Part shown: positions 3,161-44,756 of the stretch, one piece after another
Layout: each line of letters begins with the position of its first letter
How positions within the stretch are numbered: the stretch's first letter is position 1
Assembly (NCBI GenBank): GCA_027021785.1
Contig: JALUTR010000183.1
Location: 1 to 44,878 of the forward strand
Direction: 5' to 3'
Length of the DNA: 44,878 nt
From: Fidelibacterota bacterium
Lineage (GTDB): Bacteria; Fidelibacterota; Marinisomatia; Marinisomatales; JAADGP01
Translations under genes and position numbers: made by a program
The notes under the pieces: generated by a model
The model's database searches: none
Seen by the model: the letters and a program-made list of their open reading frames with translations, nothing else
Told to the model about the DNA's origin: nothing

Positions 3161-4117
3161 ATGTTTTTGAAAAAAGGATTCCATTATTTTGCGTTATTGA
3201 TTGCTTCGTGCCTGGTCTTCTTTTTTTGCTTTACCACGTTCGGATTCCCGGCGTCTGTCCCAAAATTTTCTTTTGCCGTCCTTGCGGATCCCAGGGCCGG
3301 CGGCGAAACCTGGAAAAACGCCTTATCGGAGATACGGGATATGGCGGTCAACCCTGAACCAAAGTTCACTCCTAATCAAATTATCATTGTCGTCGGAGAC
3401 ACCGATCCCCTTGAATTAAGGTATAACGATTATAAGAATATTTTTATTAACACGAATGAGTCCCCCCTCTTTTTACCCGTAATTGGAAATCATGAATTTG
3501 AGAATAACGGCAAGCCCTTCCGGTATGCCAGGGATACGATTATTCCCGCTATTCCGAACGTGGTTCGCAGACATCCGAAATCATGTGACTATTATCTGGA
3601 TCATGAAAATGCCCGGTTCATAATACTTGACGGATACACCGACCTTGGTAAAAAAGGAGTCATCAACCGTAAAGGCAGACAATGGGTTGAGCAGGTAATT
3701 AAATCAGCGCCCTTAAAGATTGATCATATTTTTATCTTTTTTCATGAACCCGCTTTCCCACGATATCGTCATCTAAAAGATTCTTTCAACGCGGATCCTG
3801 AAAGCCGGGATGCCTTTTGGAAAATGTTGCTGGTATACCGCGACAAGGTTCGGGCGGTTTTCGTTGGACATACACATCATTACTACCGAATGCGTATTCT
3901 TGATCCTTCGGGGATACCCGCCAATGATAAGCATGCCTTTCCGGATGAAAACGGTGGCATATATCAGGTGGATGCCGGGGCGGCCGGAAACGGCAAGAAG
4001 AATATAATTGTGCAAACACAGATAAATGGTGAGCGGATTATTTTCAGAGTTCTCCAGGCAGATAACGGTAGCGGAAAACCATTCAAAAAAATTGATGAAT
4101 GGCAATATCAACCGTAA
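3161..4117 (+). CDS. Secreted calcineurin-like metallophosphoesterase
   Basis: A 318-residue protein with an N-terminal hydrophobic signal (about residues 8-30), so it is probably exported. It carries the metallophosphoesterase motifs in order: LADPRAGG (motif I, with Arg where the usual D-x-H has His), VVGDTDP (GDxxx), GNHEF (GNHE), FFHEP (metal-binding His) and VGHTHHYY (GHxH). It should hydrolyse a phosphomonoester or phosphodiester using two metal ions; the substrate cannot be read from sequence. The replaced His in motif I may alter binding of one metal. It stands alone, between the TonB receptor and the HAMP/trkH operon, all on the plus strand. Confidence 0.88.
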   Translation: MFLKKGFHYFALLIASCLVFFFCFTTFGFPASVPKFSFAVLADPRAGGETWKNALSEIRDMAVNPEPKFTPNQIIIVVGDTDPLELRYNDYKNIFINTNESPLFLPVIGNHEFENNGKPFRYARDTIIPAIPNVVRRHPKSCDYYLDHENARFIILDGYTDLGKKGVINRKGRQWVEQVIKSAPLKIDHIFIFFHEPAFPRYRHLKDSFNADPESRDAFWKMLLVYRDKVRAVFVGHTHHYYRMRILDPSGIPANDKHAFPDENGGIYQVDAGAAGNGKKNIIVQTQINGERIIFRVLQADNGSGKPFKKIDEWQYQP

Positions 4118-4161
4118 AAAGACCGTAAGGGACTGATTTTTTCCAATCGACATTTTTAGTT

Positions 4162-4180
4162 GGAGGCGTTCCTCCGGAGG
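4162..4180 (+). promoter_or_regulatory. Possible mutually exclusive leader hairpins upstream of HAMP-trkH
   Basis: The leader reads GGAGG, CGTT, CCTCC, GGAGG. The central CCTCC can pair with either flanking GGAGG, which could form alternative short hairpins. It lies about 80 bases upstream of the HAMP-sensor start. A regulatory role is speculative. Confidence 0.2.
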
Positions 4181-4261
4181 GAATGTTTTTCCATTGATAT
4201 CCATAATCAACGTAAATTAAATCACTTCAATACTATTCATAACGATGGTGGGAGAATGATT

Positions 4262-5023
4262 ATGGGTCTGCGTCTGAAAATTTTATCCGGTTTCCTCGTT
4301 TTGTCATTAATGTTAATTGTAGCCGGGATCTGGTCAATCTACCATTTCCATTTTATTGGTGAATCGGTCCAGAAACTAATTGATAATAATTACCAAAGTA
4401 TCACGGCCACCAATACCATGATCAATGCCTTGGAAAGAGAAGACAGCGCTGTTTTGTTGTTGCTATTGGGGAAGTGGGAGAATGGGCGGTCGCTCCTGGA
4501 AAAAGCCGACAGCGTATTCAACCAAGGATTCCGGTTGGCGGAAAAAAATCAAACCTTGGCCGAAGAAGCCGATTTGATTAATAATATAAAGTCCAACTAT
4601 CAACAGTACAAAAAGTTGTGGCAGTTGCCGATCGTCGGCACTTCCAAAGAAAATAATCTGGATTGGTACTTCGATGGAATACACCAGGCTTTTTTAGATA
4701 CGAAAGCGTCCGTAAACGATTTGAACCTGTTGCACGAGAATGAATTATATCGCACCTCGATCGAATTAAGAAATCGCGCGAATCGCGCGACCATGCCCGG
4801 CATTGTCGCCATCATTACCGCCCTGATTTTCACTCTCATGTTCAGTTACCTGATCAATTACTTTATGGTCAATCCGATCATTCGTGTTATTAACGGCATA
4901 ACACTGTTTCTTAAAACGGGCGAACCGTTCAATGTGCGGGTACGAACGAAAGATGAGATATCCAAGCTGGTATCCTCCGTTCAGTATCTTTGTTCGAATA
5001 AGAGCGAAAAGCCCGACAAATGA
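4262..5023 (+). CDS. HAMP-domain membrane sensor without output domain
   Basis: I place the start at ATG 4262, because GGGAG lies 7 bases upstream; the ORF track's longer start has no such site. The protein is then 253 residues. Transmembrane helix 1 is at about 5-27. A mostly helical extracytoplasmic region of about 150 residues resembles a four-helix-bundle sensor. Transmembrane helix 2 is at about 180-202, followed by a HAMP-like segment (VNPIIRVINGITLFLKTGEPFNVRVRTKDEISKLV). The family normally continues into a histidine kinase, cyclase or chemotaxis domain; here it ends some 20 residues after HAMP. Its stop overlaps the trkH start (ATGA), indicating translational coupling. It may be a truncated kinase or a genuine accessory subunit that modulates potassium uptake (inference). 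Confidence 0.75.
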   Translation: MGLRLKILSGFLVLSLMLIVAGIWSIYHFHFIGESVQKLIDNNYQSITATNTMINALEREDSAVLLLLLGKWENGRSLLEKADSVFNQGFRLAEKNQTLAEEADLINNIKSNYQQYKKLWQLPIVGTSKENNLDWYFDGIHQAFLDTKASVNDLNLLHENELYRTSIELRNRANRATMPGIVAIITALIFTLMFSYLINYFMVNPIIRVINGITLFLKTGEPFNVRVRTKDEISKLVSSVQYLCSNKSEKPDK

Positions 5024-6468
5024 GACTGCACGTAATTTTCCGCTATGACGGTCTTATTCTGTTGTTGAATGGGGCCTTCCTCACAATTTCCGCGTGTATT
5101 TCCATGTTCGGTTCCGATTCCGCCTTGTTTCCCCTGGCATACGCGGCTATTATTTCCTTACTATTCGGTATTTTCCCCCTGATCTTTATCCCGGCTACCT
5201 ATGACATTTCCAATAAAGAAGGTTTGGTTATTGTCATTTCCAGTTGGTTGCTTTCCTGCCTGATCGGGATGTTGCCATATATTTTATGGGGTGGTGACTT
5301 CACAGTGACAAACGCCTGGTTCGAAAGTGTTTCCGGGTACACGACAACCGGTTCAACCATCTTACAGAATGTTGAGGCGCTTCCCAGGGGCCTGTTGTTC
5401 TGGAGGGCGTCTACCCATTGGATCGGTGGGATGGGTATTATTGTCTTTGTTCTGGCCGTGCTGCCCAACATGGGTATGGCGGGAATGATGCTTTATCGCT
5501 CGGAAGTCTCCCATCACACGATGGACAAGTTCCGCTTCAAAACCAAGCGGGCGGCACAAATTCTGATCAGCGTCTATTTCGGTCTGACCCTCCTGGAAAC
5601 AATCATTCTGGCTTTCAGCGGCATGAGTGTTTTCGACGCCATCACCCATTCGTTTGCTACCATCGCCACCGGCGGATTCTCAACCAAGAACGCGAGTATA
5701 GCCTATTATAACAGCGCCGTTATTGATTGGGTGATCATTGTTTTCATGGTCATTTCCGGGATTCATTTCGGTTTATTGTACGCCGTCTTTACCAAGAGCA
5801 TCCGCCGAATATTGCAATCCTCAGTGGTCAAATATTATCTGCTGGCCCTGCTCATCGGTGTAATCGTAACAACGATAAGTAATTACGGAACTCAATATTC
5901 GAGTTGGCTGACCTCATTAAGATTTTCCGCTTTCCAGGTCATATCGGTGGGAACTTCAACCGGGTTTGCCACTGCCGATACCAATCCCTGGCCTTCCCTG
6001 ACTCATATTCTGATTATCTTCTTCACACTCCAGTGTGCCTGTGCGGGCAGCACCTCGGGAGGGATCAAGACCGACCGGATTATTCTTTTCTGGAAAACGG
6101 TTGTTAAAAAAGTACGGCAATTCCTTCACCCCAAGGCCATTATTCCGGTCAGTATTGACAAATCCAATATCGATCCGAATGTGCTGGAACTGAGCGTCCT
6201 GTATATTTCCATCTATCTGATGGTGGTGTTTATCACAACTATCCTGCTCACCGCCATGGGCGTTGACAGCACCACCGCCTTCACCGGTTCGGCGGCAACG
6301 ATGGGGAATGTCGGTCCCGGCCTGGGACTGGTGGGGACGGTCCATAACTTCAGCCAGATCCCGGCTGCGGGGAAATGGCTGCTTACATTAAACATGTTCC
6401 TGGGCCGACTGGAAATCTTCAGCGTCATTATTTTTCTGTCTCCGGAAACCTGGCAAAAACTCAGGTAA
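5020..6468 (+). CDS. trkH: TrkH/KtrB-type potassium transporter, membrane subunit
   Basis: A 482-residue polytopic protein of the Trk/Ktr/HKT superfamily, which carries K+ across the inner membrane. Four selectivity-filter loops are visible in order: SGYTTTGST, ATIATGGFST, SVGTSTGFAT and GSAATMGNVGPG. The conserved GSTSGGIKTDR segment follows filter three and is typical of TrkH. Length matches the family (about 480). The usual NAD-binding cytoplasmic ring subunit TrkA is absent from this window. Instead the gene overlaps a HAMP-only sensor by 4 bases. A convergent ClC gene with an RCK_C domain follows beyond a hairpin terminator. Confidence 0.95.
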   Translation: MRLHVIFRYDGLILLLNGAFLTISACISMFGSDSALFPLAYAAIISLLFGIFPLIFIPATYDISNKEGLVIVISSWLLSCLIGMLPYILWGGDFTVTNAWFESVSGYTTTGSTILQNVEALPRGLLFWRASTHWIGGMGIIVFVLAVLPNMGMAGMMLYRSEVSHHTMDKFRFKTKRAAQILISVYFGLTLLETIILAFSGMSVFDAITHSFATIATGGFSTKNASIAYYNSAVIDWVIIVFMVISGIHFGLLYAVFTKSIRRILQSSVVKYYLLALLIGVIVTTISNYGTQYSSWLTSLRFSAFQVISVGTSTGFATADTNPWPSLTHILIIFFTLQCACAGSTSGGIKTDRIILFWKTVVKKVRQFLHPKAIIPVSIDKSNIDPNVLELSVLYISIYLMVVFITTILLTAMGVDSTTAFTGSAATMGNVGPGLGLVGTVHNFSQIPAAGKWLLTLNMFLGRLEIFSVIIFLSPETWQKLR

Positions 6469-27609: not shown

Positions 27610-27662
27610 AATCCCCTCTCAAGAAGGGTATCCCGATCCGATTCGGGACAAGGTGTGTACAA
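27610..27662. repeat. Degenerate copy of the CCCCTCT hairpin repeat
   Basis: ATCCCCTCTCAAGAAGGGTA, then a TCCCGA/TCGGGA hairpin, then AAGGTGTGTAC. The order (CCCCTCT arm, second hairpin, GGTGTGTA tail) matches the modular repeat at 42.6, 42.9 and 43.6 kb, but is heavily diverged. It sits between the 3' ends of tag and pabC and may act as a terminator. Confidence 0.4.
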
Positions 27663-42559: not shown

Positions 42560-42799
42560 CTCCAACACCATTTTCATTACCGGACCTAAAAATCCCCTCT
42601 GGAGGGGAACCGACGAAGTCGGAGGGGGGTGTGTAATGAGCGCTCCCTTTGGTGCATACTATCATTTACAATCCGGGCTCTGATAGATCGACTGAGTCCA
42701 TAGATGAAGATCAAACTGTAACGTGAAGGAATAATTTGATTTCAGTAATCCGTATTCTGCAATTTCCGTAACAAACAAAACATCGTTGGAAACACAATT
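42560..42799. repeat. Modular hairpin repeat, copy A (full length)
   Basis: Order of parts: CCAACACCATTTT, CGGACCTAAAAATC, the CCCCTC/GAGGGG hairpin, the CCGAC/GTCGG hairpin, GGGGGGTGTGTAATGAGCGC, then TAGATCGACTGAGTCCATAG and a tail CAGTAATCCGTATTCTGCAA ending in ACACAATTG. Copies B and C repeat this order with few changes. No ORF in 42403-43067 looks real. Confidence 0.85.
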
Positions 42800-42814
42800 G
42801 CCCTGCACACACCC

Positions 42815-42860
42815 CGCCCCGATTCGGATCGGGGCGCCCCTCTTTTTAGAGGGGATCGGC
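42815..42860. repeat. Partial, rearranged repeat hairpins
   Basis: CCCCGA/TCGGGG hairpin (CCCCGATTCGGATCGGGG) followed by CCCCTC and GAGGGG arms around TTTTTA. The modules resemble those of copies A-C, in inverted order, directly after copy A. Confidence 0.5.
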
Positions 42861-42936
42861 TACTTTTGAAACAGAACCCTCAATCAATAATAATGAATCC
42901 GGTTCCACCAGCTAGCTCTAAAAAGAAAATTCAAAT

Positions 42937-43040
42937 AGTTCCCCAACACCATTTTAAAATCCCCTCTGGAGAGGGGACCACCGACGAGGTCGGAGGGGGG
43001 TGTGTAATGAGCGCTCCCTCCGGTACACACCGTAAATTGT
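42937..43040. repeat. Modular hairpin repeat, copy B (3'-truncated)
   Basis: AGTTCCCCAACACCATTTTA, then CCCCTCT-GG-AGAGGGG, the CCGAC/GTCGG hairpin and GGGGGGTGTGTAATGAGCGC. It loses similarity to A and C shortly after CTCCCTCCGGTACA, about 30 bases before the end of the DUF559 gene. Confidence 0.85.
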
Positions 43041-43067
43041 AGACCGGTTTTCGACAATAGTGATAAT

Positions 43068-43436
43068 TCATCGACTTGTTGTTTCCCATTGTGCTATCCA
43101 TCGGTCAATAGTTTCCAAAACGCCATCCAGATTTGATCTTACATCGCTTTCCCGGAAACGCAAAATATGCAACCCCAACGATTTTAATCTGGATTCGCGA
43201 ACAGTATCATATTCAAATTTCCCCTCATGGCTCTCACCGTCAATCTCAATTATCAGTTTCAGTTTCGGGCAATAAAAATCGACAATGAAATCCAGAATCG
43301 GCTTCTGTCGGTGGAAATCGTAACCACGCATTTGTTTACCCTTTAAATGTATCCAAAGCAATATTTCTCCGGGGGTGCTTCTATTGCGTAGCGCACGAGC
43401 CAAGGATTTTAGTCTGGGATTATAAGGTATTTTCAT
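43068..43436 (-). CDS. DUF559 / Vsr-like endonuclease-fold protein
   Basis: A 122-residue protein with the DUF559 pattern: ARALRNRSTPGEILLWIHLK, then GYDFHRQKPILDFIVDFYCP, KLIIEIDGESH and LGLHILRFRESDV. The restriction-endonuclease-like core residues D-x-n-E-x-D (FIVDF and IEIDG) resemble the very-short-patch repair nuclease fold. Nuclease activity is presumed for the family, and its biological role is not established. Here it sits between copies B and C of a hairpin repeat and is transcribed opposite to the PAP2-distal Rrf2. Such linkage to repeats suggests a role in their spread (inference). Confidence 0.9.
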   Translation of the reverse strand: MKIPYNPRLKSLARALRNRSTPGEILLWIHLKGKQMRGYDFHRQKPILDFIVDFYCPKLKLIIEIDGESHEGKFEYDTVRESRLKSLGLHILRFRESDVRSNLDGVLETIDRWIAQWETTSR

Positions 43437-43555
43437 AGATCAGCTCTGTTTTGATAGTTGAAAAATTGAAAAAACACTGAAAATCTAATAAAATTTAACA
43501 ATGGACATAAAATAATTTTGGGTTTACCACACACCAGCCCCCAGGAGGAAATTCC

Positions 43556-43966
43556 ATAGTTCCCCAACACCATTTTTTTTGCCGGACCTAAAAATCCCCT
43601 CTGGAGAGGGGACCACCGGCGAAGTCGGAGGGGGGTGTGTAATGAGCGCTCCCTCTGGTACATACTATCATTTACAGTCCGGGCTCTGATAGATCGACTG
43701 AGTCCATAGATGAAGATCAAACTGTAACGTGGAGGAATAATTTGATCTCAGTAATGACGCAATCGTAAAAAGTCGGGTGATAAAACGATAACAGTTACTA
43801 AGCTATAGAAATTATTAATATTATACGATATTACCATCAATTCTTGGTTTTATTGCATATTCGTTTGATTCGTTTGCTTCGTTGTTAGTTTTTACGGGAC
43901 CATCAGTAATCCGTATTTTGCAATTTCCGTAATAAACAAAACATCGTTGGAGATACAATTCTAGAT
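43556..43966. repeat. Modular hairpin repeat, copy C, split by an insertion
   Basis: From ATAGTTCCCCAACACC through the CCCCTCT-GG-AGAGGGG and CCGGC..GTCGG hairpins to TAGATCGACTGAGTCCATAG and GATCTCAGTAAT (43755), nearly identical to copy A. The tail (CCGTATTTTGCAATTTCCGT ... ACAATT) resumes at 43911 after an insertion. Track ORFs here are translated repeat. Confidence 0.85.
43756..43910. mobile_element. MITE-like insertion in repeat copy C with 7-bp target duplication
   Basis: Copy A is uninterrupted here (TTTCAGTAATCCGTA). In copy C, CAGTAAT occurs at 43749-43755 and again at 43904-43910, with about 148 bases between. The insert ends share CGTAAAAA in inverted orientation (GACGCAATCGTAAAAAGTCG at the left, TTTTTACGGGACCAT at the right). 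It is non-coding and AT-rich, so a non-autonomous element is likely. No transposase is in the window. Confidence 0.6.
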
Positions 43967-44184: not shown

Positions 44185-44478
44185 TTAGACAGCCGTGAGT
44201 TCCAGTTTCTTCACTTTCCTCATATCTATTTTCTGCTTGGCACGCCAAAGAGAATAGTGGTCCTGCATGGCTAACCAACTTTCCGGAGTTCTCCCAAAAA
44301 CATGTGAAAGACGCAACGCCATTTCCGGCGTAACATTGCTCTTGCAATTTAGGAGTCTGATAAACGTAGAGGCTGCAACGTTCAGATTTTCGGCTACTTT
44401 TCTGGAGCTCAAGCCAAACGGTTTCATGTATACCTCTCTGATGAATTCACCAGGATGGGGAGGGTTGTGCATACTCAT
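44185..44478 (-). CDS. higA: HigA-type antitoxin (XRE-family HTH)
   Basis: A 97-residue antitoxin. It begins with the family's NPPHPGEFIREVYMKPFGLS. The helix-turn-helix follows (SSRKVAENLNVAASTFIRLL) and then VTPEMALRLSHVFGRTPESWLAMQ, diagnostic of the HigA/VapI addiction-module group. It neutralises the HigB toxin and probably represses the operon. Its ATG overlaps the toxin stop by one base (TAATG). Toxin-first order is the normal higBA layout. A second Met two codons on is an alternative start. Confidence 0.94.
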   Translation of the reverse strand: MSMHNPPHPGEFIREVYMKPFGLSSRKVAENLNVAASTFIRLLNCKSNVTPEMALRLSHVFGRTPESWLAMQDHYSLWRAKQKIDMRKVKKLELTAV

Positions 44479-44756
44479 TAATGGTAGTCCTCATAATTTA
44501 CGGCATGAGCGTTTCCCGCTTCAAATTTGAAGGTTAAACGCCAATTGCCACTTACTAATATTGACCAGAAACTTTTCCGACTTCCTTTCAAGGGATGCAG
44601 ATTGAAGCCGGGAATATCCATATCTTCAATTGTCGTGGCTGTATCCAGGGCCGATAGCATAAGTCGAAGTCGCTTGGCATGAATTGCCTGAATTCCAGCC
44701 TTTGATCCAGTCTCATAGAATTTTCGCAATCCTTTATGGTTGAAAGACAAGATCAT
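44478..44756 (-). CDS. higB: HigB-type toxin (RelE/ParE superfamily)
   Basis: A 92-residue toxin. It has FNHKGLRKFYETGSKAGIQA near the start, HAKRLRLMLSALDTATTIED, and PGFNLHPLKGSRKSFWSILV leading to SGNWRLTFKFEAGNAHAVNY, typical of the plasmid killer/HigB family. HigB cleaves mRNA on the ribosome. It is the first gene of a toxin-antitoxin pair with higA at the repeat-rich window edge, consistent with a mobile cargo region. The 44757-44878 end shows no gene. Confidence 0.94.
   Translation of the reverse strand: MILSFNHKGLRKFYETGSKAGIQAIHAKRLRLMLSALDTATTIEDMDIPGFNLHPLKGSRKSFWSILVSGNWRLTFKFEAGNAHAVNYEDYH

Follow-up and report, generated by a model that had tools for sequence, protein, structure and literature searches.

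In the 44,878-nucleotide stretch of Fidelibacterota DNA analyzed here (the window, contig C183 in a draft assembly of 3.2 Mb), hairpin-bearing repeats surround a small gene for a DUF559 protein. The question that this locus raises is whether the repeats and the gene form one unit and, if so, what moves it. A first-pass annotation of the DNA had suggested a mobile repeat moved by the nuclease. The mobile unit is supported by hairpin boundaries, an intragenomic duplicate and empty sites, and the part played by the nuclease is one that we infer. The cluster exemplifies a widespread pattern, and we favor, with moderate confidence, the reading that it is a small mobile unit in which a DUF559 nuclease gene lies between inverted triplex-forming ends, flanked by the gene-less elements A and C, and whose movement would be driven by the nuclease. 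The triplex relation, the inverted end at 42815, the link to the BoxC/PIT repeats and the breadth of the association were all absent from the first-pass annotation.

Architecture of the repeat cluster and its nuclease gene

Sequence comparison within the window recovered the three annotated copies, A (from 42562), B (from 42940) and C (from 43562), all of which contain CCAACACCATTTT, a CCCCTCT..AGAGGGG hairpin, a CCGRCG..GTCGG hairpin and AGGGGGGTGTGTAATGAGCGC. The cluster is not a chance assembly, because GGAGGGGGGTGTGTA has six matches in the window (at most three mismatches) against 1.1 expected from shuffles, and because all three CCCCTCT..AGAGGGG hairpins in the window fall inside the cluster. 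The features are as follows.

27612..27661, + strand: isolated decayed end, with CCCCTCTCAAGAAGGG, linker hairpin ATCCCGATCCGATTCGGGA and tail AAGGTGTGT
42562..42593, + strand: outer sequence flanking A (CCAACACCATTTT..CCGGACCTAAAAAT), conserved also left of C and, shortened, left of B
42594..42634, + strand: left end of element A, with hairpin CCCCTCTGGAGGGG (42594-42607), linker hairpin CCGACGAAGTCGG (42610-42622) and putative third-strand tail GGGGTGTGT (42626-42634)
42807..42854, - strand: right (inverted) end of element A, with tail ACACACCCC (42807-42815), linker hairpin GCCCCGATTCGGATCGGGGC (42816-42835) and hairpin CCCCTCTTTTTAGAGGGG (42837-42854)
42961..43005, + strand: B, which closes the DUF559 unit 3' of the gene, with hairpin CCCCTCTGGAGAGGGG (42961-42976), linker hairpin CCGACGAGGTCGG (42981-42993) and tail GGGGTGTGT (42997-43005)
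43068..43436, - strand: DUF559 (PF04480) nuclease gene, an open reading frame of 122 amino acids
about 43527..43552, - strand: probable remnant of the DUF559 unit's other end, 5' of the gene (ACCACACACCAGCCCCCAGGAGGAAATTCC), recognized as decayed by comparison with intact ends such as that of locus L017 (ACACACCCCCAGCCCCTCTTGATAGAGGGG)
43596..43640, + strand: left end of element C, with hairpin CCCCTCTGGAGAGGGG (43596-43611), linker hairpin (43616-43628) and tail GGGGTGTGT (43632-43640)
43641..43960, + strand: interior of element C, homologous to 42635-42799 of A, interrupted at 43755-43909 and truncated before the right end

The G-rich tail belongs with the first hairpin, and the CCGAC hairpin between them is an optional linker. 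The annotated double-hairpin module thus contains the hairpins described, but these are not two equal partners. In complete copies of the A-type element in the same genome (C198:9892-10242 and C116), the repeat takes the form of an inverted pair, with hairpin and tail on the left and tail and hairpin on the right. The right end of A has the same layout as in these copies, so that what had been taken for rearranged modules at 42815 is the inverted opposite end of A. Element A is accordingly a gene-less element of about 260 bp with a hairpin and tail at each end (hairpins spanning 42594-42854), and about ten more repeat pieces occur elsewhere in the source genome. A and C share a further stretch of about 140 plus 58 nt at 93 to 96% identity; the sharing reported earlier as a conserved tail of about 120 bases is therefore real, but it represents the element interior, which in C is split by a different repeat of about 155 bp. 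The diverged unit noted near 27610 is likewise real and decayed.

A and C are gene-less and point in the same direction, and the DUF559 unit lies between these two direct copies. The tail of B faces the gene. On the other side, the sequence at 43527-43552 reads ACACACC-AG-CCCCC-AGGAGG and looks like a unit end whose hairpin lost its loop region; with one end decayed, the unit in the window may have lost its movement. An Rfam scan of the window returned no match at the gathering score. The repeat of about 155 bp inside C (43755-43909, TGACGCAATC..GGGACCATCAGTAA) has TCAGTAA at both sides and further copies in the same genome at C6:13310, C88:8528 and C122:1344.

The protein matches PF04480 with E = 9e-32 and 109.6 bits (gathering score, 20.6), and its gene is the only DUF559 gene found in the genome. 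All residues invariant in the family are present (R16, E23, W27, F40, R42, Q43, D52, E63, D65, G66 and H69, with numbering that starts at the residue following the start codon), and D52, E63, D65 and H69 are invariant across an alignment of 78 relatives. An AlphaFold model (pLDDT, 92.3; pTM, 0.85) has as its nearest Foldseek structures 3hrl, a gonococcal DUF559 protein, and 3r3p, the homing endonuclease I-Bth0305I, followed by Vsr. The Vsr-like fold proposed in the annotation is borne out in this model, and the predicted fold together with the conserved acidic residues place the protein among the PD-(D/E)XK/Vsr-type nucleases. YcjD of E. coli had been assigned to the PD-(D/E)XK superfamily by 2005 or earlier (PMC1189080). 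VsrA of Caulobacter, also a DUF559 protein, has a proposed Vsr-like action and influences DNA-damage signaling (PMC12907096). A defense-system reading was rejected, as PADLOC matches were weak and partial. Several DUF559 reading frames continue through the flanking hairpins, giving falsely long open reading frames; at one E. coli locus (L220, 7394-7421) the ycjD frame extends into a triplex repeat, and ..RRSPSP forms the C terminus of the protein.

Hairpins beside DUF559 genes across bacteria

To assess the breadth of the association, we assembled 71 DUF559 loci from many phyla by searching GTDB with the protein of the window. A CCCCT-N2..10-AGGGG hairpin lies within 150 bp of 51 of the 71 DUF559 genes, compared with 16 of 313 control open reading frames from the same loci, and on both sides of 22 DUF559 genes, compared with a single control. 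Selecting DUF559 genes in 98 genomes of the phylum purely by their match to the Pfam model avoided bias from sequence similarity. Inspected by eye, the flanking hairpins vary in sequence, and at almost all Pfam-chosen loci their 5' arm consists entirely of pyrimidines. This Y-arm rule was derived from the phylum and cross-phyla loci and then used on fresh samples from the Gammaproteobacteria and Cyanobacteria.

Y-arm hairpins lie within 150 bp of 67 of the 70 DUF559 genes in the phylum and of 12 of the 264 control open reading frames, and on both sides of 42 and none, respectively; some loci are not independent and the control frames are mechanical, but the gap is nevertheless very large. Hairpins of the reverse sense and equal composition (R-arm) occur near 5 of the 70 genes. 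Among Pfam-chosen genes of the Gammaproteobacteria, 19 of 20 have a Y-arm hairpin within 150 bp and 16 have one on both sides, and among those of the Cyanobacteria the count is 23 of 30. The cross-phyla set gives 58 of 69 DUF559 genes against 28 of 337 controls. The enrichment next to DUF559 genes that the annotation had named as a check is therefore found in each of these samples.

DUF559 loci without hairpins do occur, among gut Bacteroidales, Clostridia and Cyanobacteria, and none of eight DUF559-like domains in larger or divergent proteins has them. The HigBA toxin-antitoxin pair at 44185-44756 directly adjoins C in the window. As a partner of the repeat it was rejected: none of 25 HigB genes of the phylum, taken as a control, is flanked by Y-arm hairpins.

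In the phylum, copies dispersed through the genome follow the gene as well. The pattern CCCCTYY-N1..6-RRAGGGG, which covers some arm types only, occurs on average 7.0 times in the genomes of the phylum that carry DUF559 and 1.15 times in those that do not (98 genomes), compared with 0.84 and 1.07 for the reversed pattern. At least six copies are present in 12 of 43 genomes with DUF559 and in none of 55 without it. Within the phylum, the repeat excess is restricted to DUF559-bearing genomes, in agreement with the annotation's second check. In genome G073, a repeat end of about 40 nt lies about 45 to 100 bases from the contig end on contigs C7, C18, C84 and C126. The repeats probably break assemblies, and the copy numbers in draft genomes are probably too low.

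Third strand, protein type and mobility

Each hairpin is usually followed by a G-rich tail, most often after 3 nt, and the sequence of the tail varies with that of the hairpin: AGAGGGG is paired with GGGGTGT, AAGGAGGGG with GGGGTGGTT, GGGGGAAGG with GGATGGGGG and GGGGAGAAG with GATGAGGGG. The tail is the purine arm in reverse, in which G stays G and A becomes A or T. Among hairpins with asymmetric arms, an exact 8-nt mirror match lies beside 115 of 143, where 9.9 would be expected with arms from other loci. A direct, non-mirror relation was rejected, matching 42 of the same 143. At 9 nt, the mirror match is found in 56 of 70 asymmetric cases and the direct orientation in 11, with 2.8 expected. 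The linker measures 2 to 4 nt in 104 of 153 cases (mode, 3), and 33 of the 42 longer linkers contain a small hairpin. Copies A, B and C of the window follow the same rule, with purine arm AGAGGGG, tail GGGGTGT and a hairpin within the linker.

An antiparallel purine-motif triplex is encoded by mirror repeats that give G.GC, A.AT and T.AT triads. Judged by their sequence, the arm-tail pairs carry the code of such a triplex within one strand. A protein that reads half-sites in duplex DNA would not equate mirror images, so that the joint variation of arm and tail would be most simply explained by contact between nucleic acid strands.

The type of hairpin tracks the DUF559 protein rather than the host. 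The arms on the two sides of one gene have a similarity of 0.915, compared with 0.786 for shuffled pairs, and arm similarity drops with protein distance (Mantel r = 0.21; null standard deviation, 0.033). In the phylum, arms beside related DUF559 proteins of different genomes have a similarity of 0.93, and those beside unrelated DUF559 proteins of one genome have a similarity of 0.78 (p = 6e-10, for pairs that are not independent). DUF559 families differ in their arms, for example CCCCTCT versus CCTTCCCCC. The repeat travels with the protein type, and the within-genome comparison rejects host composition as the cause of arm type. Several loci (L085, L089, L100, L119, L131 and others) have a different hairpin type on each side (CCCCTCT and CCCCCTTT), unlike the usual matched pair.

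Comparison of homologous units delimits what moves. One DUF559 unit of 643 bp occurs twice in a single genome with 99.4% identity, and the match stops 6 to 8 nt beyond the hairpins at both ends. In other homologous pairs in different surroundings, the match extends past the hairpins by 2 and 3, 0 and 4, 4 and 1, and 9 and 5 nt; this boundary of at most 9 nt applies to the cleanest pairs, and some diverged pairs end elsewhere. Some matches extend into neighboring repeats. The DUF559 island of genome G076 has no counterpart at the corresponding intergenic site of its four siblings G079, G080, G078 and G075, where at most a few tens of bases separate the neighboring genes and the empty site contains no repeat. 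Defined ends and presence or absence at one site, by which an insertion sequence or MITE is recognized, are both found here.

The annotation had asked for empty sites and target duplications; the former exist, but no target duplication of fixed length was found among 96 units. Of the 96 units, 13 lie between direct repeats that measure 11 nt or longer, against 0.3 expected; the lengths of these direct repeats vary, they are often copies of the repeat spacer, and they also fit recombination between repeats. Genome G039 was rejected as a source of a unit-defining empty site: the island missing in G043 measures about 2.2 kb, includes other genes and has outer GAGTTGAGAGTT/AACTCTCAACTC borders. 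At one intergenic site of a single genus (L124, about 3600-5880; G041:C4; G043:C74), the islands differ by species and have GAGTTGAGAGTTAAGAGTGATGAG and its inverse at their borders, and one sibling has no island there.

Proposed origin of the repeats and relatives of the unit

BoxC, PIT or TM repeats were already recognized in E. coli in the 1990s. They were described as intrastrand-triplex repeats by Holder et al. 2015 (PMC4666352), citing Hoyne et al. 2000. According to the same study, the E. coli motif folds into a stable triplex in vitro by CD and NMR, DMS in vivo gave no triplex footprint, and the repeats occur in more than 260 genomes, are associated with rearranged loci in E. coli, are surrounded by no transposase or integrase remnants and have an origin that the authors called unclear. 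They share with the DUF559 repeats a C-rich arm, a loop, a G-rich arm, a second loop of 3 nt and a G-rich third strand. BoxC/PIT/TM has been known only as an orphan repeat, with no mobility gene found, whereas the repeats here are tied to DUF559 genes; the motif is also broadened here to many arm sequences that have the mirror rule alone in common. The window repeats depart from the E. coli consensus CCCTCNCCC N3-6 GGGNGAGGG N3 GGGNGAGGG in their CCCCTCT arms and long linker, and gammaproteobacterial DUF559 flanks bear the E. coli-type sequence. By the arrangement of arm, loop and third strand, the repeats of the window and of DUF559 flanks in general belong to the BoxC/PIT/TM class.

E. coli itself provides a direct connection. 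Of the 23 copies listed in PMC4666352, copy no. 9 (1351204-1351239) lies 168 bp from ycjD (1351407-1351760), which is annotated as a DUF559 protein (Pfam E = 1e-49), and a second, partial triplex motif overlaps the end of ycjD. The strings "DUF" and "nuclease" are absent from the text of PMC4666352, and among the open-access papers searched that name DUF559, none connects it with repeats. We propose that DUF559 is probably the missing partner of the BoxC/PIT family. The main counter-observation to this model also comes from E. coli, in which the motif is present in 4921 of 5426 genomes and the ycjD region in 3334, and genomes without ycjD retain their repeats. The expectation in the annotation that genomes lacking the gene lack the repeat thus holds in the phylum but not in E. 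coli, where such persistence would be expected only if repeats outlive their nuclease. The fabI-sapF interval of E. coli holds either ycjD with repeats or the eefRABCD efflux operon as alternative contents (PMC12817139). As an empty-site test, ycjD was rejected, since strains without it have that operon in its place.

How might such a unit move? In an intact end, a loop joins a pyrimidine arm to a purine arm, and a short linker, either of about 3 nt or containing a small hairpin, leads on to a G-rich third strand, which would fold back on the purine arm to form an antiparallel purine-motif DNA triplex. When an end becomes single stranded, for example at a replication fork, it would adopt this hairpin-triplex. 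The Vsr-type DUF559 protein would recognize the folded end and cut at its base, and this cut would start movement; host replication or recombination would then reinsert or copy the unit. Acting in cis on its own gene and in trans on gene-less inverted pairs, the nuclease could generate the dispersed copies. In the wider form of this proposal, such units are pan-bacterial minimal mobile elements with triplex-recognized ends, whose DUF559 protein, by mobilizing gene-less pairs in trans, gave rise to BoxC/PIT/TM repeats in hundreds of genomes, including E. coli; we regard this wider form as about as likely as not.

Homing could account for part of the same evidence. A free-standing DUF559 homing endonuclease would cut existing repeats, and repair of the break with a DUF559-bearing copy would convert them, the repeats serving as landing sites and homology arms with no transposition into new sites. 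The nearest fold and sequence match outside DUF559 is indeed the homing endonuclease I-Bth0305I, DUF559 genes often lie between direct repeat copies (A and C in the window; loci L166, L030, L013 and L128), and unit boundaries coincide with repeats. However, the repeat-free site in the four siblings of G076 points to insertion into a naive site, the spread of dispersed gene-less copies would also need explaining, and a homing site would not require arm and tail to covary as mirror images. We consider homing unlikely. It is less likely still that DUF559 is a passenger, settling at tolerated sites where unstable triplex repeats collect insertions and having no functional link to them. The association of triplex repeats with rearranged loci (PMC4666352) and their persistence without ycjD in E. 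coli would suit such a reading, but it would not explain why HigB genes and larger DUF559-domain proteins lack the repeat, why genomes of the phylum without DUF559 have no repeat excess or why arm type tracks the protein between genomes and differs among the DUF559 genes within one.

The linkage could also reflect repair, with DUF559 removing or resolving triplexes formed by nearby repeats, in analogy to the action on mismatches proposed for VsrA of Caulobacter. The Vsr-like fold and the effect of VsrA on DNA-damage signaling (PMC12907096) are compatible with this role, which nevertheless leaves unexplained the bounding of the gene on both sides, the duplication of units together with their terminal hairpins and the lack of repeats where the gene is missing; we consider it improbable. 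Strong GC-rich hairpins near gene ends also resemble ordinary bidirectional terminators, or RNA elements that insulate a selfish small gene. Here the pyrimidine arm comes first and the R-arm sense is rare, a mirror third strand would be meaningless for a terminator, and dispersed copies lie at a distance from DUF559 genes. According to PMC4666352, RNA is unable to form purine-motif triplexes, and PIT elements showed neither promoter nor terminator activity. Strand sense and mirror tail led us to reject simple terminators and R-arm hairpins as an explanation, and the broader terminator or RNA-element reading is highly improbable.

The mobile unit with triplex-forming ends remains the reading that we prefer. 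What is new is the combination of DUF559 nuclease and triplex-forming ends, as the parts are individually known. The analysis ties repeats of unclear origin (PMC4666352) to DUF559/YcjD, widespread single-domain nucleases without a settled role, and the mirror third strand provides a repeat rule that holds across phyla and predicts which nuclease pairs with which repeat. A long-open question becomes testable in E. coli K-12, a laboratory strain that is safe to handle and has both ycjD and its repeat. If true, the model would describe a mobile element with a DNA triplex end and a natural biological use of the triplex.

Among known systems, REP/REPIN sequences with their RAYT protein are nearest in logic: they are short, dispersed palindromes, often in inverted pairs, that flank a dedicated nuclease gene, and the type of repeat follows the protein. 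RAYT is a Y1 HUH enzyme, whereas the gene flanked here encodes the unrelated PD-(D/E)XK/Vsr-type DUF559. The GTAG or CGTC tag of REP is absent from the DUF559 repeats, whose tails (GGGGTGTGT, GGGGTGGGT, GGGTGAGGG and similar) appear to code for a triplex, and DUF559 is unmentioned in PMC3733652 on REP/RAYT. By this comparison, DUF559 units are not members of that system, as nuclease and end structure both differ. The EDxHD/Vsr-fold enzyme I-Bth0305I (PDB 3r3p) is a homologous nuclease by profile (E = 3.5e-5) and structure (TM, 0.62/0.76) that spreads its own gene, but it belongs to a phage group I intron, whereas DUF559 stands alone between triplex-forming ends. To our knowledge, I-Bth0305I has no terminal repeats. 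Vsr and Caulobacter VsrA have the same predicted nuclease fold as the window protein, with a proposed repair role at T:G mismatches and no repeats reported. The TnpA elements of IS200/IS605 resemble DUF559 units in that they carry one small nuclease gene and have hairpin ends believed to be active in single-stranded form, but their nuclease is of another superfamily, and their hairpins are subterminal, whereas those of DUF559 units are terminal.
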